Source: Haloprofundus halophilus
GTDB taxonomy: Archaea > Halobacteriota > Halobacteria > Halobacteriales > Haloferacaceae
NCBI RefSeq assembly: GCF_003439925.1
Contig: NZ_QQRR01000003.1
Location: forward strand, 186,001 to 250,000
Direction: 5' to 3'
DNA: 64,000 nt
Shown: piece by piece, positions 50,009-58,908 of the stretch
Position numbering within the stretch: the stretch's first letter is position 1
How the letters are laid out: each line of letters starts with the position of its first letter
Notes under the pieces: model-generated
Seen by the model: the letters and a program-made list of their open reading frames with translations, nothing else
What the model was told of the DNA's origin: nothing
Database searches by the model: none
Program-made: the position numbers and the translations under genes

Positions 50009-50803
50009 ATGCGAAAAGTACGATTTGTCGACCAGTCGGGAGCGGTTCGAGAGGGAGAATGGAACGACGACGAGATCGAGTTCGGCGGTGAGACGTACGA
50101 CCCCGAAGCGGTCGACGTGCTACCGCCGTGCGAACCGTCGAAGATCGTCTGCGTCGCCGCGAACTACATAGAGCACATCAAAGAGGCCGGGCGGAGTATC
50201 CCCGAGGATCTGCCGCCGCGACCCGGTTTCTTCCTCAAGGGACCGAACGCGGTCGCGGGACACGGCGACACCGTGACGCTCCCGACGCCGGCGGCGACCG
50301 AGGAGGAGATGGCCGGTCGAGAGAAGGGCGACATCGAACTCGGACAGGGCCGAATGGACTACGAGGCGGAGTTCGGCGTCGTCATCGGCGAGCAGTGTCG
50401 AAACGTCTCGGAGGACGACTACATGGACGTCGTCGCGGGGTACACGTGCCTCAACGACATCTCCAACCGCGACGACCAGGACCTCGAACGGAACTGGGTC
50501 CGGGGGAAGGCGTTCGACGGCTCCGCGCCGATCGGCCCCGTTCTCGCGACGCCGGACGAAGTGCCGGAAGAACCGCGTGTACGTCTCTGGTTGAACGGTG
50601 AGAAGCGCCAGGACTCCGACGACGACGAACTCGTCTTCCCGGTGTCGAAGGCGATCAGCGACGTGACCCGCTTCCTGACGTTGGAACCGGGTGACATCGT
50701 CGCGATGGGGACGACCGTCGGCGTCGGGCCGCTGAGCGACGGCGACCACGTGGAGATCGAGGTCGAGGGAGTCGGTCGGTTGGAGCACTACGTCGAGGCG
50801 TAA
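50009..50803 (+). CDS. Fumarylacetoacetate hydrolase (FAH) family protein, copy 1
   Basis: A 264-residue metal-dependent hydrolase of the FAH superfamily. Core blocks are SKIVCVAANYIEHI, GPNAVAGHGDTVTLP, RMDYEAEFGVVIGE with the two Glu ligands, CLNDISNRDDQ with the Asp ligand, and GSAPIGPVLATPDE. Compared with copy 2 (58135-58908) it has an insertion of about 18 residues before DYEAE. Members cleave C-C bonds or hydrolyse 2,4-diketo acids from sugar-acid or aromatic breakdown. TATA-like CTATATGTA about 35 bases upstream. Confidence 0.92.
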   Translation: MRKVRFVDQSGAVREGEWNDDEIEFGGETYDPEAVDVLPPCEPSKIVCVAANYIEHIKEAGRSIPEDLPPRPGFFLKGPNAVAGHGDTVTLPTPAATEEEMAGREKGDIELGQGRMDYEAEFGVVIGEQCRNVSEDDYMDVVAGYTCLNDISNRDDQDLERNWVRGKAFDGSAPIGPVLATPDEVPEEPRVRLWLNGEKRQDSDDDELVFPVSKAISDVTRFLTLEPGDIVAMGTTVGVGPLSDGDHVEIEVEGVGRLEHYVEA

Positions 50804-50932: not shown

Positions 50933-51598
50933 ATGAGTGGCCCCACGGGTAACGAGTCGCTGTTTTCGAGTGGCGTGTTGGTCGTTCGAGACGACACCGT
51001 CTCCGTCTCCGAGTCGTTCGTCTCGGCGGTCGAGGAGTACCTGACCGCGTTCGAGGAGTCGCCGTCCGACGACCTCGTTCGAGAGGTTTCGACCCGACTC
51101 GGCGACGAGACGCTCGTCGACGCCTTTGTCGAACTCGGACGAAAGGACCCGCGGTCGGTCGCCGAACTCTGCGCACTGGCCGACAAGCGGGAGACGTCGA
51201 CCGCGGCCGAGTTGCTCTCCGTACTGCCAGTTCTGCGGCTCTTCCGGCCGAACTCGACGCTCGAAGCCGGCGTCCCCGACGGTGCGATACCGGTTCCAGC
51301 CGACCACCTGCCCGCGCTATCGAGAGTGTACTCACCCCTCGCCGTGTACGTCTGGCTTGACGACTGCCCGCCGTGCGATTCGCTGAAATCGCGGCTCGAA
51401 TCCCTGTTCGAAGAGCCTCGTGGAATGCAGTTGTTCGCGGTGTACGGTCCCGACTATCAGGAGTTCCTCGCCCGAGAGTACCACGTGACCGCGGGGCCGG
51501 CGCTGCTGTTCTTCCGAGACGGCGACGTCGACGTCCGACTCTACGGCGACCAGAGCGACAGCGCCATCGAAACCGAACTCCGGCGCGTCCAACAGTAA
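50933..51598 (+). CDS. Thioredoxin-fold protein with CPPC motif and N-terminal extension
   Basis: A 221-residue protein. The C-terminal ~110 residues form a thioredoxin fold with active site DDCPPCDSLKSRLE and the cis-Pro region TAGPALLFFRDGDVDV. The first ~110 residues (FVSAVEEYLTAFEESPSDDL, then FVELGRKDPRSVAELCALAD) are helical and not found in simple thioredoxins. No signal peptide, so cytosolic. CPPC is an uncommon variant that tunes redox potential; it could be a disulfide reductase. Confidence 0.85.
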   Translation: MSGPTGNESLFSSGVLVVRDDTVSVSESFVSAVEEYLTAFEESPSDDLVREVSTRLGDETLVDAFVELGRKDPRSVAELCALADKRETSTAAELLSVLPVLRLFRPNSTLEAGVPDGAIPVPADHLPALSRVYSPLAVYVWLDDCPPCDSLKSRLESLFEEPRGMQLFAVYGPDYQEFLAREYHVTAGPALLFFRDGDVDVRLYGDQSDSAIETELRRVQQ

Positions 51599-51878: not shown

Positions 51879-52784
51879 ATGAGTATCGCAAACAAGATAG
51901 ACAGCGTTCGAGGCAGTGATTACGGAATCGTGCTCTCGAACACACTGAGAAAGTTGCTCCGAGAGCGGATGACCCGATTCGCCTTCTTCGGACTCCTCTT
52001 CGTCTTGCTGCTCGGCCTCCTCGGTCCCATGCTCGCACCGTACGACTACAGCGCCCAGCAGCGAACCGCCGACGGAGACCTGAAACGGTACGTCTCGCCC
52101 TCGCTCGAACACCCGCTGGGGACGAACGACCGCGGTGAAGACGTCGCCTCGCGGCTGTTGTTCGGCGCTCGGGCGACAGTCATCACCGGCATGCTCGCTG
52201 GAACGCTCATGCTGTCGATAGGGCTGCTCGTCGGCGTCGTCGCGGGGTACGTGGGTGGACGGTCCGAGGAGGTGCTCATGCGGTTCGTCGACCTGATGTA
52301 CGGGATTCCGTTCATCCCCTTCGCGATCGTCCTCATCACGTTCTTCGGGGCGGGGTTCTACACGACGATAGCGATAATCGGACTCGTCCTCTGGCGGTTC
52401 ATCGCCCGTGTCATCAGATCGCAGGTGCTACAGATCAAACAGCGCGAGTACATCATGGCGGCGAAGGCGTCCGGCGCGAGCACCTCCTGGATCATCCGAA
52501 AGCACATTCTCCCGAACATCGCAAACATGGCGGCGCTGTTTTTCGCCATGGGCGTCGGTCTGGCGATTCTCGAACAGGCCGGACTGTCGTTCATCGGCGT
52601 GACCGACCCCTTCATCCCGACGTGGGGTATCATGCTGCGAAACGCTCACCAGTCGGGTAGCGTCGTGGAAGCGTGGTGGTGGTCGTTCCCGCCGGGAATC
52701 ATGATCTCGGTGACCGTCCTCTCGCTGTACCTGCTCGGACGCGGGTACGAACAGTCGACCGAGAACGACGAGGTAGTAGTCTAA
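51879..52784 (+). CDS. Dpp/Opp-type ABC transporter permease (DppC-like)
   Basis: A 301-residue membrane protein with an N-terminal cytoplasmic segment and about six helices. The EAA loop EYIMAAKASGASTSWIIRKHILPNI and the N-terminal HPLGTNDRGEDVASRLLFGA are hallmarks of DppC/OppC. The gene opens a run of five transporter genes, all on the plus strand, with a TATA-like TCTTATTAAAG about 110 bases upstream. Confidence 0.95.
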   Translation: MSIANKIDSVRGSDYGIVLSNTLRKLLRERMTRFAFFGLLFVLLLGLLGPMLAPYDYSAQQRTADGDLKRYVSPSLEHPLGTNDRGEDVASRLLFGARATVITGMLAGTLMLSIGLLVGVVAGYVGGRSEEVLMRFVDLMYGIPFIPFAIVLITFFGAGFYTTIAIIGLVLWRFIARVIRSQVLQIKQREYIMAAKASGASTSWIIRKHILPNIANMAALFFAMGVGLAILEQAGLSFIGVTDPFIPTWGIMLRNAHQSGSVVEAWWWSFPPGIMISVTVLSLYLLGRGYEQSTENDEVVV

Positions 52785-52785
52785 C

Positions 52786-53832
52786 ATGACCGAACCCATA
52801 CTCGAATTCGAAGACGTCAACATCAAGTACCGGACGCGGGGAGACAGCGACGTACACGCGGTCAACAACGCGTCGTTCACCATCGGCGAGCACGAGTACT
52901 TCGGACTCGTCGGCGAGAGCGGCTGCGGTAAGAGCACTATCGCGGACTCGGTCGTCGGCGGCCTCGACGACAACGGCGAGGTCGTCTCCGGGAAGATCAA
53001 GTTCAAAGGCAAGGAGATTCAGGACTTCAGTGAGAAACAGTTCAACAAGGAGATTCGCTGGAAGGAGATATCGGTCATCCCCCAGTCGTCGATGAACAGC
53101 TTAGACCCCGTGATGAAGCTGAGCGACCAGGCCATCGAGATGGCCAAGTACCACACGGACCTGTCGAAACGGGAGGCCGTCGACCGCCTCAGAGAGCTGT
53201 TCGACGTGGTCGGGATTCCCGAATCGCGCATCCACAACTACCCCCACCAGTTCTCCGGCGGGATGCAACAGCGGACGATAATCGCGTTCTCGCTGTTCCT
53301 GCAGCCGAGTCTCATCATCGCCGACGAGCCGACGACGGCGCTCGACGTCATCATGCAGGACCAGATTCTCGACTACATCAACGCGCTCAAAGACGACTGG
53401 GACGTGAGCATGCTGATGATTACCCACGACATCTCCATCGTGTTCGAAAACTGTGACACGATGGCGGTGATGCACGGCGGTCAGATGGCCGAATCCGGGA
53501 GCGTCATCGACGTGTTCGACCGTCCGCGACATCCCTACTCCATCCTCCTGCAGAACGCGTTCCCGGACATCCGCTACCCGGACCGGGAACTGGCGGTCAT
53601 CGAGGGGCACCCCCCACAGTTGACCGAAGTGCCGGACTACTGCACGTTCGCCGACCGATGTCCGTGGGCGACCGCCGAGTGTTACGACGGTGCGCCGGAA
53701 CCCGTCGACGTCGGCGGCGGCGACGACCACCGCGCGTGGTGCGTGCACGCCGACGAGATGGAGACGCTCGCGGCCGAGCACCTGTCCACGTCGAGGAACG
53801 CGACGAACATTCTGGAGGAAGCCCATGAGTGA
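52786..53832 (+). CDS. Dpp/Opp-type ABC transporter ATP-binding protein (DppD-like)
   Basis: A 348-residue ATPase. Walker A GESGCGKST, signature FSGGMQQR, Walker B LIIADEPTTALD, switch His ITHDIS. The C-terminal Cys-rich oligopeptide-transport extension (TFADRCPWATAECYDGAPEP) supplies the usual four-Cys (Fe-S or zinc) motif. Starts one base after the permease stop. Confidence 0.95.
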   Translation: MTEPILEFEDVNIKYRTRGDSDVHAVNNASFTIGEHEYFGLVGESGCGKSTIADSVVGGLDDNGEVVSGKIKFKGKEIQDFSEKQFNKEIRWKEISVIPQSSMNSLDPVMKLSDQAIEMAKYHTDLSKREAVDRLRELFDVVGIPESRIHNYPHQFSGGMQQRTIIAFSLFLQPSLIIADEPTTALDVIMQDQILDYINALKDDWDVSMLMITHDISIVFENCDTMAVMHGGQMAESGSVIDVFDRPRHPYSILLQNAFPDIRYPDRELAVIEGHPPQLTEVPDYCTFADRCPWATAECYDGAPEPVDVGGGDDHRAWCVHADEMETLAAEHLSTSRNATNILEEAHE

Positions 53833-54847
53833 ATCGCCACCGGTGTTGGAACTTCGGTCGTTGGAGAAGCATTTCAAAACGTCGGGCGGGTTGCTCAACA
53901 CGGCAGTAAACCGGATCACCGGGGGCACTCCCGACTACGTTCGCGCTGTCGACGGCGTGAGCATGAAACTGGAGAAAAATCAGGTGCAGGGTGTCATCGG
54001 CGAGAGCGGCTGTGGAAAGACGACGCTGCTTCGGACGCTCATCGGCATCTACCAACCGTCCGGCGGGGAGATGTACTTCCACGGTCGGCCCGTCTCGGAG
54101 TTCGACAAAGCCGACTGGAAGGATTTCCGTCGGCAGGTCCAACTCGTGTTCCAGGACCCGTTCAACTCGCTGGACCCGAAGTTCACCGTCCGACGGACGC
54201 TGGCCGAACCGCTCGAGATACACGGTATCGAATACGACGAGGCTCGAATCGCCGAGATGCTCGAGGCCGTCGGTCTGACGCCGCCCGAGAAGTACCTCAC
54301 TCGGTTCCCGAGCCAGCTATCGGGCGGAGAGAAGCAGCGGGTCTCCATCGCGCGCGGACTGATCACCGAACCGGACGTCATCCTGGCCGACGAGCCGGCG
54401 TCGATGCTCGACGTCTCCACGCAGGCGGAGATTCTGAACCTGCTAAACCGACTCACCGACGAGTTCGGCGTCTCGATGTTGTACATCTCGCACGACCTGT
54501 CGACGGTGTCCTACATCTGTGACATGATCAACGTGATGTACCTCGGGCGGGTCGTCGAGCAGGCGCCCACCAAGGAACTCATCGTCGACCCGAAGCATCC
54601 GTACACCGAAGCGCTGATCAAGTCCATCCCGGTGCCCGACCCGCACTACGTCCGCGACCGACCGGACGTCGACGGCGAACCGGGCGACCCGATAAACATG
54701 CCGACCGGCTGTCGGTTCAAGAATCGGTGTCCGCAGCGGATGGACGTCTGCGACGAGAAACCCCGCGACATCGAACTCGGGGGTGACGTGAACCGCACGG
54801 TTGCGTGTCACCTCTACAACGAACAGCTCCTGGAGGGAGCACAATGA
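53825..54847 (+). CDS. Dpp/Opp-type ABC transporter ATP-binding protein (DppF-like)
   Basis: A 340-residue ATPase read from the ATG overlapping the DppD stop. Walker A GESGCGKTT, Q-loop VFQDPFNSLDP, signature LSGGEKQR, Walker B VILADEPASMLD, switch His ISHDLS, and the Cys-rich end (GCRFKNRCPQRMDVC). Its own stop overlaps the ATG of a tiny ORF (ATGA). Confidence 0.95.
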   Translation: MSESPPVLELRSLEKHFKTSGGLLNTAVNRITGGTPDYVRAVDGVSMKLEKNQVQGVIGESGCGKTTLLRTLIGIYQPSGGEMYFHGRPVSEFDKADWKDFRRQVQLVFQDPFNSLDPKFTVRRTLAEPLEIHGIEYDEARIAEMLEAVGLTPPEKYLTRFPSQLSGGEKQRVSIARGLITEPDVILADEPASMLDVSTQAEILNLLNRLTDEFGVSMLYISHDLSTVSYICDMINVMYLGRVVEQAPTKELIVDPKHPYTEALIKSIPVPDPHYVRDRPDVDGEPGDPINMPTGCRFKNRCPQRMDVCDEKPRDIELGGDVNRTVACHLYNEQLLEGAQ

Positions 54848-54954
54848 ACACAGAAACCACAGAGAGAGCGGGAGCAACACCCGCTGGAGACAGCCTGACA
54901 GACGCAGTTCCGCACTGGTCCGCCGATACGAAATCGGGAGGTGAGGGCGCGTGA
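54844..54954 (+). CDS. 36-codon ORF coupled on both sides inside the Dpp operon
   Basis: A 36-residue frame filling the gap between the DppF-like and DppB-like genes. Its ATG overlaps the DppF stop as ATGA (54844-54847) and its stop overlaps the DppB GTG as GTGA (54951-54954). It is polar and acidic (MNTETTERAGATPAGDSL at the start, TKSGGEGA at the end) with no hydrophobic segment. The double coupling argues that ribosomes pass through it; it may be a small protein or a translational bridge. It has no recognised family. Confidence 0.6.
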   Translation: MNTETTERAGATPAGDSLTDAVPHWSADTKSGGEGA

Positions 54955-55949
54955 GTCGTCTCCAGTACTTCGTCAAGCGGACGCTCGTCACGGCGGTGCT
55001 GATCTTCCTCGTGGCGACGGCCCTGTTCGTCTTCTTCCGGGCGATGCCCGGCGACTACACCTCGCTGTTGGTGCAACAGGGGATGAGCCCCGAACAGGTC
55101 GAGCGGTTACAGACCAAGTGGGGACTCAATCAACCGCTCCACCAGCAGTACTTGGCGTATATCACCAATCTGTTAACCGCAGATGCCGGCATCTCCTTCC
55201 GCCACGGAACCGACGTGTGGACGCTGGTGAAGCCCCGAATTCTGAACTCGCTCATTCTCGTCGCGCCGGCGATTACGGCGACGTACATCATCGGGTCGGT
55301 GCTGGGCGCGGTCATCGGTCGGTACCGCGGCGGGCTGTTCGAGAAGTCGAGCATCGTCTCGGTGTCGGTCTTTCACTCGATTCCCGAGTTCTTCCTCGGC
55401 ATCCTGCTGATAGCGGCGTTCTCCGAGACGCTCGGCCTCTTCCCCACGTCGGGGATGCTCTCGCCGCAGACGTCCATCGCCATCCAGGACCAGCCGTTCT
55501 ACGAGATGTTCTTCCTGCCGGAGTTCTGGCAGCACTACGCGCTGCCGTTCGCGACGATTACGCTGTACTTCATGCAGTATCCCGCGCTGATCATGCGCAA
55601 CAGCGTCGTCGAGATAAGCGACCAGGACTTCCTGCACTACCACCGGCTGAAGGGGCTTCCCCGGGCGAAACTCCTTCGGAAGCTCTACCGCCACGCCTGT
55701 CTGCCGGTCGTGACGCTCTACCCCATCTCGCTGGCGAACGCCATCAGCGGACTCGTGCTGGTCGAGGTCGTCTTCAACTGGCCGGGCATCGGTCGGCTGC
55801 TCGTCGACTCGGTGCTCGCGAGAGATTTCCCGGTGATCCAGTTCGTCTTCCTCGTCGCCGCGGTGTGGGTCATCCTCGGGAACTTCTTCGTCGACCTGTT
55901 CTACGGCGTGATCGACCCCCGGGTATCGGTCGAAGGCGACGCCGAGTAA
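54951..55949 (+). CDS. Dpp/Opp-type ABC transporter permease (DppB-like)
   Basis: A 332-residue membrane protein starting at a GTG (MSRLQYFVKRTLVTAVLIFL) that overlaps the 36-codon ORF. Typical DppB features are FVFFRAMPGDYTSLL, the extracellular RWGL-like TKWGLNQPLHQQYLAY, and an EAA loop DQDFLHYHRLKGLPRAKLLRK. Position after the ATPases and before the binding protein is unusual compared with the common order A-B-C-D-F. Confidence 0.93.
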   Translation: MSRLQYFVKRTLVTAVLIFLVATALFVFFRAMPGDYTSLLVQQGMSPEQVERLQTKWGLNQPLHQQYLAYITNLLTADAGISFRHGTDVWTLVKPRILNSLILVAPAITATYIIGSVLGAVIGRYRGGLFEKSSIVSVSVFHSIPEFFLGILLIAAFSETLGLFPTSGMLSPQTSIAIQDQPFYEMFFLPEFWQHYALPFATITLYFMQYPALIMRNSVVEISDQDFLHYHRLKGLPRAKLLRKLYRHACLPVVTLYPISLANAISGLVLVEVVFNWPGIGRLLVDSVLARDFPVIQFVFLVAAVWVILGNFFVDLFYGVIDPRVSVEGDAE

Positions 55950-56100
55950 CTCTCGGCGCGCCGCCCACGGAGTCGCGTCGACGACCGCTTCGTTTTCGGC
56001 TTCCGTTCGTGAAATCGAACGAGGACCCGAATCGCACCAATCATTCAGGATGTATTACCAGTACCAATATCTTTTTAACCCCTCGAGAGAAGGTTGGCTT

Positions 56101-57891
56101 ATGCCAACATGTGGCAAGAGCGGACCAGAGACGAGAGTCAGCCGACGGCGATTGTTACAAACGGTCGGCGTCGCATCGGCTGCAGGTCTCGCTGGCTGCA
56201 GCGGTACCAACGAGAACAACGGGAGCGGCGGAGGCAACGGGGATTTGGGCGAGCGGGTGCCGACGCTCACGTTCCAGTACTGGTCGGACCAGGGACCGCC
56301 GACGGTGCTCTTCGAGGAGACTATCTCGCAGATAGAGGCGAACATCGGTGAGATCGGCGTCCAGATCGAGACGATGCCGATGACGACCGGCGAGGGGATC
56401 ACTGCGGTGTCCGACGACACGCGCGGCTTCCACTTCGCGGTCAACAGCCACGGGCCGTCACCCGGACGCCTCGATCCGAACGAGCTGCTGACCAACTACA
56501 GCATCGACTTCGCGGGGGCGAACGGGCAGTACAACCCCGCAAACTACGCCAGCTGTGAGTTCACCGAACACGCCAAGGCCCAACAGACGGCGGGCGATCC
56601 TGACGAACGACAGTCGATCGTCGACGACGCGATGGCTCAGTTCTCGGAGGACGTCGCGTTCATCACGACCATCGAACGGCCGACGACGGCTGCCATCAAC
56701 ACGGACCAGGTCAACGCGGTCGAAGCGGGGTCGGCGGGGTTCTCGGACACCCACTGGGCGGCGTTAGTCGAGGCGGGGGTCACGACCACCGGCGGCACCG
56801 ACACCATCGTCGCGAACTTACCGTCGGAACACCTCACGAGTAGCTTCTACCCGACCGTTGCCGACGGCGACTCGATAGGACTCTACACGAGTCTCACTCA
56901 CTCGCCGTTGCTAGCGTACGACGCGAACTACGAGCTCACTCCCGTGCTCGCCGAAGACTGGGAGACGTCCGACGACGGGACGTCGACGACGTTCAACCTC
57001 CGAGAGGCGACGTTCCACAACGGCGACCCGGTTACACCGGAAGACGTCAAGTGGACGTACGAGTTCCTCGCCGAGCAGTACCACGCCGGCAACTACTCGT
57101 GGACGTCGCTCCCGGAGAGCCTCACCGTCGAAATCGTCGACGACAGCACCGTCAACTTCGTGACCGACGAACCGGCGCCGACGCTACTGACGGCGAGCCT
57201 CGCCATCTACGGTGTGCTCCCGAAGGGCCCCTACGTCGACGCGGGCATCGAGGACAACCCGACCGACTTCGAGGACCCGATGATCGGTGCCGGGCCGTAC
57301 CGGATCACGGCGTACAACAACCAGCAGAACATGGCGCTGGAGCCGCACGACAGCCATCCCGTCTACGACGTACAGACGGGCATCGTCTTCCAGCTCTACG
57401 AGAGCACCGACGGCGTCACCCGAGCGTTCGAGAACGGCGAACTCAACGTCGCCGTCGCGCTGCACCCGGAGGCCGGCAGTCAACTGCGGGAGAGCATGGG
57501 CGACAACGTCCAGATCATCACCGGGAAGTCGCACCTTCCGTTCGGTGTGATGCCCCAGCAGTCGTTCGCCCCCGGGATGTTCCGCGAGTTCCGGATGGCG
57601 CTGTCGAACCTCATCGACAGACGGAGCCTGAACGAGACGTACGCGTTCGGCGAATCCGAGGTGGTAACGCAGGGCACCTTCAACTCGAACGCTCACCCGT
57701 GGCACAACGCGGACGTGCTCACGAAAATCGCCGACGAGACGGCGAACACCGAGCGAGCGCGGCAGCTGCTCGAAGACGCCGGATGGGGCTGGGACAACAA
57801 CGGTAACCTGCACTACCCGCCGGATGCGGAGTTAGAGGCTTGGCCACAGGGCGAGACGCCCGACCCGAGCGAGTTCTCCTGTCTCGAGTGA
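56101..57891 (+). CDS. Dpp/Opp-type (SBP_bac_5) substrate-binding lipoprotein with circularly permuted domain order
   Basis: A 596-residue secreted protein. Twin-arginine signal VSRRRLLQTVGVASAAG and lipobox LAGC with Cys33. After a Gly/Asn linker, residues ~53-215 match the part normally at the C-terminus of family 5 binding proteins (IGEIGVQIETMPM, FHFAVNSHGPSPGRLDPNEL, DERQSIVDDAMAQFSEDVAF). Residues ~232-596 then match the usual N-terminal lobe (LTHSPLLAYDANYELTPVLA, TFNLREATFHNGDPVTPEDV, RARQLLEDAGWGWD) and the chain stops where the C-terminal part would normally follow. TATA-like TTTTTAACCCC is about 25-30 bases before the ATG. It should bind the ligand of the preceding Dpp-type transporter. 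Confidence 0.88.
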   Translation: MPTCGKSGPETRVSRRRLLQTVGVASAAGLAGCSGTNENNGSGGGNGDLGERVPTLTFQYWSDQGPPTVLFEETISQIEANIGEIGVQIETMPMTTGEGITAVSDDTRGFHFAVNSHGPSPGRLDPNELLTNYSIDFAGANGQYNPANYASCEFTEHAKAQQTAGDPDERQSIVDDAMAQFSEDVAFITTIERPTTAAINTDQVNAVEAGSAGFSDTHWAALVEAGVTTTGGTDTIVANLPSEHLTSSFYPTVADGDSIGLYTSLTHSPLLAYDANYELTPVLAEDWETSDDGTSTTFNLREATFHNGDPVTPEDVKWTYEFLAEQYHAGNYSWTSLPESLTVEIVDDSTVNFVTDEPAPTLLTASLAIYGVLPKGPYVDAGIEDNPTDFEDPMIGAGPYRITAYNNQQNMALEPHDSHPVYDVQTGIVFQLYESTDGVTRAFENGELNVAVALHPEAGSQLRESMGDNVQIITGKSHLPFGVMPQQSFAPGMFREFRMALSNLIDRRSLNETYAFGESEVVTQGTFNSNAHPWHNADVLTKIADETANTERARQLLEDAGWGWDNNGNLHYPPDAELEAWPQGETPDPSEFSCLE

Positions 57892-58134: not shown

Positions 58135-58908
58135 ATGCGACAAGTTCGATTTATCGATCCCGCAGGCAGTACGCGGACCGGTGAGTGGGTCGACGGCGGC
58201 GTCGAGTTCGCCTCTCAGCGGTTCGACGTCGAAGACGTATCGATTCTCCCGCCGACGAATCCGACGAAGATCGTCTGCGTGGGCTTGAACTACCGACTGC
58301 ACGCGGAGGAGACCGACTCGGAGATACCCGAACGGCCGCTTCTGTTCCTGAAGACGCCGAACACGCTCGCCGGCCACGGCGACACCATCGCACTGCCGAA
58401 GGACAAAGAGCGAATCGACTACGAGGCGGAACTCGGCGTCGTCATCGGCGAACAGTGCCGCAACGTCTCTCGCGAGAACGTCGACGAAGTCATCGCCGGC
58501 TACACGGTCGTAAACGACCTCTCGAATCGCGACGACCAGCGAGAGGAACAGAACTGGGTCAGAGGGAAGGCGTTCGACAACTCCGCCCCCGTCGGCCCGG
58601 TGCTGGCACCGCCGGAGGCGCTCGCCGACGACGCGTCGATCGAACTCCGACAGAACGGCGAGGTGAAGCAGTCGTCGACTATCGACGACATGATCTTCGG
58701 CGTTCCCGAACTCATCGAGGAGATTACGAAGCTCGTGACGCTCGAGGCGGGCGACGTGATCGCGACCGGGACGCCCGAGGGAGTCGGCCCGATCAGCGAC
58801 GGCGACACCGTCGAAGTCGAGATCGACGGCGTCGGTACGCTCGTCAACAACTTCGTCGCCAAGGAGTTCAGCGGCGACACGTCCAACGACTTCATGCCCG
58901 GCCAGTAG
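58135..58908 (+). CDS. Fumarylacetoacetate hydrolase (FAH) family protein, copy 2
   Basis: A 257-residue hydrolase paralogous to copy 1 at 50009-50803: MRQVRFIDPAGSTRTGEW start, KIVCVGLNYRLHAEE, TPNTLAGHGDTIALP, RIDYEAELGVVIGE with Glu ligands, VVNDLSNRDDQ with Asp, WVRGKAFDNSAPVGPVL, GDVIATGTPEGVGPI. It lacks the 18-residue insertion of copy 1. It lies downstream of the Dpp-type operon with its own TATA-like region (TTTATG, AATTAACATA). Likely substrate is a 2,4-diketo-3-deoxy acid or similar. Confidence 0.93.
   Translation: MRQVRFIDPAGSTRTGEWVDGGVEFASQRFDVEDVSILPPTNPTKIVCVGLNYRLHAEETDSEIPERPLLFLKTPNTLAGHGDTIALPKDKERIDYEAELGVVIGEQCRNVSRENVDEVIAGYTVVNDLSNRDDQREEQNWVRGKAFDNSAPVGPVLAPPEALADDASIELRQNGEVKQSSTIDDMIFGVPELIEEITKLVTLEAGDVIATGTPEGVGPISDGDTVEVEIDGVGTLVNNFVAKEFSGDTSNDFMPGQ

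Follow-up and report, generated by a model that had tools for sequence, protein, structure and literature searches.

Solute-binding proteins are textbook folds and common scaffolds for biosensors. Those of family 5 (SBP_bac_5, PF00496; cluster C) include DppA, OppA, NikA and AppA, of which DppA of Escherichia coli has the normal order of parts; the DppABCDF system to which it belongs serves as the model for docking of a binding protein on DppB/DppC, and DppA uses R383 and D436 to bind the two ends of the dipeptide (PMC12136057). The closest described precedent for a natural rearrangement of such a protein is TpMglB-2 (Tp0684) of Treponema pallidum, a circularly permuted glucose-binding protein for which the designation 'Type Ic / Cluster Bc' was proposed. 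TpMglB-2, a lipid-anchored binding protein of the ABC type, has kept its ability to bind ligand and alters its shape when it does so (PMC4990184). In the literature searched, this type I protein is the only natural circular permutation of a binding protein, and the family-5 case described here appears new. No description of permuted family-5 proteins was found in the open-access literature searched, which leaves out most subscription papers, so that absence is not proof; in PMC2588589, the sole paper to contain both terms, the two occur in passages that have nothing to do with each other.

The protein considered here is encoded in a stretch of 64,000 nucleotides of Haloprofundus halophilus DNA, referred to as the window. 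It is very likely a working family-5 (cluster C) solute-binding lipoprotein with a circularly permuted mature domain. The swapped order of its parts, the common inheritance of its halves and the neighbouring transporter genes are shown; its single domain is predicted by a structural model, and binding and transport are inferred.

Order of the two halves in the window protein

The ORF at 56101-57891 on the plus strand, as are all features of this gene, is intact and encodes 596 amino acids. An alternative in-frame ATG lies at 56050, 51 nt upstream, and its use would only lengthen the leader; the ATG at 56101 is the likely start codon, an inference from sequence, because a TATA-like stretch, ATATCTTTTTAAC, lies about 25 nt 5' of it. 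Reading of the sequence identifies a signal (56101-56199) with the twin-arginine motif SRRRLLQ and the lipobox LAGC, wherein Cys33 is the lipid-anchor residue, and this pattern is kept among the orthologues. A low-complexity tether rich in Gly and Asn follows (residues 34-52; 56200-56256), which falls below pLDDT 50 in the model. The mature protein then begins with what is normally the C-terminal part, equivalent to DppA from about residue 374 to the end (residues 53-215; 56257-56745; assigned by HMM, phmmer and alignment with DppA). The new joint of the old C-terminus to the old N-terminus (residues 216-231; 56746-56793) is defined as the interval between the two profile matches, and its boundaries are approximate. 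The normally N-terminal part, corresponding to positions 1-287 of the SBP_bac_5 profile, comes last (residues 232-571; 56794-57813; assigned by Pfam, HMM and structural match). Alignment with DppA (K-12 record, precursor numbering) places the cut between residues 368 and 374.

The Pfam SBP_bac_5 match covers residues 278-571 only (E=6e-46). Its score of 157.7 bits is above the gathering threshold (cut-off 32.4), and it ends at profile position 287 of 368, shortly before the end of the protein, such that a full-profile match in normal order is not obtained. Because the profile is incomplete and the C-terminal part lies at the N-terminus, the protein was filed as a permuted variant of SBP_bac_5 rather than as an ordinary member. 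Comparison with PDB sequences by phmmer aligned residues 279-565 with 58-339 of Listeria Lmo0135 (5isu) and, as a separate segment, residues 78-186 with 360-461 of the same protein; YntA gave the same two-segment pattern. Since the second segments are weak when taken alone, HMMs were built from eight normal-order family-5 proteins, split after the LLxxAG motif, and run against every retrieved protein. In the window protein the C-part HMM matches ORF residues 94-242 (E=4.8e-10) and the N-part HMM residues 284-579 (E=3.3e-44), in a numbering that exceeds that of the 596-residue protein by 17. Normal-order controls match the two HMMs in the normal order, eight of these controls being the training seed itself. 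Homology of both halves to normal family-5 proteins with the order swapped is clearest in two other sets of relatives, L082/L105 and L147/L143.

Two other readings were considered and rejected: that residues 53-215 belong to another domain family, where the profiles instead give the family-5 C-part, and that the order is an assembly or frameshift artefact, where the same order is found in orthologues from ten named haloarchaeal genomes.

An AlphaFold2 model, for which halves of normal-order relatives were added to the input as separate rows, shows one compact domain (pLDDT 79.7, pTM 0.81). These separate fragments may bias the model towards the normal fold, and with 11 close permuted sequences alone the model is poor (pLDDT 41). 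Model residues 225-581 superpose on approximately residues 1-363 of solved normal family-5 proteins (AppA, NikZ, DppA and others) with Z of about 20-23, the best match being 1xoc 18-363 (Z 22.7, 339 residues, rmsd 4.1). A Foldseek run accompanied this order-keeping alignment, and its listed best fold matches are family-5 proteins. The structural aligners used keep chain order, and the superposition thus covers the N-part and not residues 53-215, whose placement rests on pTM and sequence homology. As to kinship with type I (cluster B) sugar-binding proteins, the listed best matches by both sequence and fold are to family 5, which does not exclude families that went unlisted.

The preliminary description, made from the sequence alone, had proposed that the mature domain is a circularly permuted SBP_bac_5 fold, and this held on the evidence of profiles, orthologues, the AlphaFold2 model and the half trees considered below. 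The motifs that it named are all present where it placed them, and the swapped order that it observed in 56101-57891 is confirmed. It had suggested aligning the two parts separately to family-5 models, a comparison in which the swapped order held, and superposing a predicted structure on normal members, which succeeded for the normally N-terminal part. Assignment of residues 53-215 to a different family, which it named as grounds for refutation, was examined by sequence only and did not materialize.

The window protein also carries an extra C-terminal tail (residues 572-596; 57814-57888) with the motif WPxGExP...F[PS]C, kept in most of the window's (P0001-like) subfamily. Cys594 within this tail (FPC; 57880-57882) and Cys152 in the relocated part (NYASCEF; 56554-56556) are predicted disulfide partners by virtue of their co-occurrence: both are present in 32 of 38 subfamily members, neither in six, and one alone in none, the positions having been matched by eye in lists and alignment. 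The six members that lack the pair form one related group of close relatives, and theirs is therefore probably one joint loss. More distant permuted proteins are without the pair. A C152-C594 disulfide that may staple the new tail is the simplest reading of this co-variation, and remains a possibility only.

Transporter genes, ligand and anchoring

Directly upstream of the binding-protein gene, and on the same strand, are genes for a DppC-type permease (51879-52784; BPD_transp_1, OppC_N), a DppD-type ATPase (52786-53832; ABC_tran, oligo_HPY), a DppF-type ATPase (53825-54847; ABC_tran, oligo_HPY) and a DppB-type permease (54951-55949; BPD_transp_1, BPD_transp_1_N). These Pfam assignments bear out the earlier claim of an adjoining permease/ATPase operon, and two BPD_transp_1 permeases with two oligo_HPY ATPases meet the definition of a Dpp/Opp-type importer. 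The gene order dppC-D-F-B-SBP recurs in all six examined loci of the named haloarchaeal orthologues. More widely, 19 of 20 loci have a gene for a Dpp-type permease or ATPase close to the permuted one, a count that covers each site-A group and leaves out the spirochaete loci; at L120 no Dpp-type transporter gene was detected within the 9 kb examined.

The nature of the ligand is a matter of inference. The dipeptide anchors R383 and D436 of DppA align with Gly65 and Gly122 of the window protein and are thus absent, which makes a plain dipeptide an unlikely ligand, as far as can be inferred from alignment. FAA-hydrolase family genes lie on both sides of the transporter operon (50009-50803 and 58144-58908 of the window) and are followed by minus-strand genes of RraA-like and asparaginase type, and an aminotransferase gene is also among the flanking genes. 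Conceivably these neighbours hint at an amino-acid-derived or carboxylic ligand, although this is a guess. Between the upstream FAA-hydrolase gene and dppC, positions 50933-51598 encode a protein that matches thioredoxin weakly.

The authors of the TpMglB-2 study raised the idea that permutation is an adaptation to lipid anchoring. This idea does not fit all members of the family-5 series, since in L022, L118 and L124 a lipobox cysteine was not found by inspection, and some permuted proteins thus seem to carry no lipid. Since L113, a permuted relative of L124, does have such a cysteine, members of a single permuted group seem to differ in how they are anchored. The signal region of L113 (1498-3189) has a weak, sub-threshold match to the NCBIfam 'lipo-invert' anchoring domain, NF058595.

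Distribution and repeated origin of the permuted order

The preliminary description had supposed the rearrangement to be rare and had called for homologues with the same order. Such homologues were found in many genomes, and the supposition of rarity failed, the permuted form being both widespread and recurrent. Orthologues with 62-76% identity occur in Halorussus, Halegenticoccus, Halalkalicoccus and Halorubrum, and among 170 genomes of the window's family 35, including its own, carry a full-length permuted relative (full-length match at E no higher than 3e-79; listed rows tallied by hand). Frames are open in dozens of genomes, with 33-77% identity over the full length and conserved motifs. 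Scans of viral contigs, undertaken to enlarge the alignment, turned up no relatives. A second, divergent permuted paralogue (L002; C3:293937-295619; 27% identity) lies in the window's own genome about 44 kb past the window end, and is without the cysteine pair.

The same cut was found in L082-L084, from three genomes that belong to the window's phylum but not to its order and are possibly of methanogen type, a guess from kinship and not the result of any tool. Bacterial genomes have it too: 10 of the 149 sampled for the Bacillota phylum (by a count of listed rows), at least one of the 151 for Chloroflexota (L128) and two for Actinomycetota (L130, L131), phylum labels here being those of the named genome used as search centre. 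In the bacterial samples, proteins in the normal order greatly outnumber permuted ones.

A second cut site, just before the (V)RQAI helix at about DppA 306, was used in three spirochaete proteins (L022:4080-5705, L024:106-1593 and L071:1495-3171); the L024 frame begins slightly inside this helix because the contig starts there. A protein from an Actinomycetota-phylum genome (L134:1589-3379) has the same design with only 22-23% identity to these, and may or may not share their origin.

For phylogenetic analysis, permuted sequences were rotated back to the normal order before trees were built. In the resulting tree permuted forms occupy four places. The main permuted clade, of 33 rows from haloarchaea and some Bacillota-phylum genomes, is separated with support 100/99, and L082, the L113 group and L128 sit among normal proteins in the careful tree. 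Permuted rows came together on one side of a branch in none of 200 bootstrap trees, and constraining all permuted forms to a single clade, at a cost of 245 log-likelihood units, is rejected by the AU test (p-AU 2.6e-70). The strongly supported (starred) branches alone force just two changes in order; a total of four therefore depends in part on less well supported branches, and L128 has the weakest placement (85/60).

Stronger evidence for several origins than the tree comes from direct pairs of permuted and normal proteins. Permuted L082 is 52% identical to normal L105 over 200-519/37-351 and 45% identical over 32-194/354-518, with a joint of about five residues. Likewise, permuted L146, L147 and L148 are 52-58% and 40-50% identical, over the respective halves, to normal L143, L144 and L145. 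Identity between the DppB/DppC-type neighbours of L146 and their counterparts at the normal L143, L144 and L145 loci is 52-60%, and between the corresponding neighbours of L082 (as L150) and of L105 (as L149) it is 52-57%, such that both orders are accompanied by closely related transporter genes. Thus, the permuted order arose more than once.

In the tree of the N-half only as in that of the C-half only, a single branch sets the 33 main-clade rows apart (SH-aLRT 98 in the C-half tree, only 63 in the N-half tree), and L082 pairs with L105. Because the two half trees recover the same permuted clade, the halves share one history.

Proposed pathway, rival explanations and known systems

The assignment of lobes in the family-5 fold is well established, with both of the old termini in lobe 1. 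The break in the chain falls in a second-lobe loop that follows the LLxxAG-ending helix (between DppA 368 and 374), and a short linker joins the former C-terminus to the former N-terminus. The permuted chain is inferred to fold to the normal two-lobed shape, to bind ligand in the cleft in the manner of a Venus flytrap, and to hand it to DppBCDF as normal binding proteins do, an inference made without binding or transport data. From the topology, the membrane tether would run via lobe 2 instead of lobe 1, and in the window's subfamily the putative C152-C594 disulfide would hold the new tail in place. The rearrangement may have originated by tandem gene duplication followed by trimming at both ends; no duplication intermediate was seen among the loci examined.

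A chimera, in which a C-type part from a different binding-protein gene was fused ahead of a truncated family-5 protein, might be suspected in that, of the two halves, the relocated one has diverged further and Pfam finds no family in it alone. This is very unlikely, however, since the half trees group the same 33 main-clade proteins and pair both halves of L082 with L105, and in L082/L105 and L147/L143 both halves resemble one normal orthologue. Such a shared nearest normal relative is shown for two permuted groups other than the window's, whose clade has no known close normal relative. Equally improbable is a domain swap, in which the relocated part would complete the lobe of a neighbouring molecule in an obligate dimer. 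Sequence cannot by itself separate a self-closing permutant from a pairing one, and in L082 only some five residues make up the joint, but AlphaFold2 puts both parts in one chain (pTM 0.81), and with the old termini in the same lobe a short joint is enough.

The unusual architecture might also suggest a decaying or non-functional gene. This is all but excluded by the open frames, full-length identity and conserved motifs across dozens of genomes, and by intact signals and transporter genes; such conservation already indicates purifying selection across relatives. Finally, a single ancient permutation followed by several reversions, in place of several independent permutations, cannot be dismissed from the tree, which does not separate gain from loss. 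Yet each reversion would be one more circular permutation at that site, which leaves the number of events no lower, and the preponderance of the normal order in the bacterial samples also speaks against this scenario, which we regard as very unlikely. The favored reading remains a self-closing circular permutant that arose repeatedly.

The same swap, made several separate times in archaea and bacteria with transporter neighbours kept, constitutes a natural experiment in protein rearrangement. The natural series of permuted and normal orthologues, at 52-58% and 40-50% identity beside matching transporter genes, makes it possible to test why one loop is favored, by what route such rearrangements come about, and whether docking on DppB/DppC depends on which lobe bears the tether. 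Engineered permuted sensors could likewise be opened at the cut sites, which nature already accepts. For annotation, standard domain scans return only a shortened SBP_bac_5 match, which masks the rearrangement.

Compared with normal SBP_bac_5 proteins, both halves of the window protein are homologous, DppBCDF-type operon partners are common to the two, and the model resembles solved members over the N-part. The window protein differs in its swapped parts, in the absence of the dipeptide anchors of DppA and, by inference, in having the lipid anchor on the other lobe; the extra C-terminal tail with paired cysteines is a further difference in its subfamily. TpMglB-2 and the window protein are both natural circular permutants and both lipid-anchored, but TpMglB-2 belongs to a different class, type I or cluster B. 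The permuted part of TpMglB-2 is a poor match, at 13% identity, and its origin was left open (PMC4990184), whereas in the family-5 permutants both halves are clearly homologous to normal counterparts, with identities of up to 58% and 50%.
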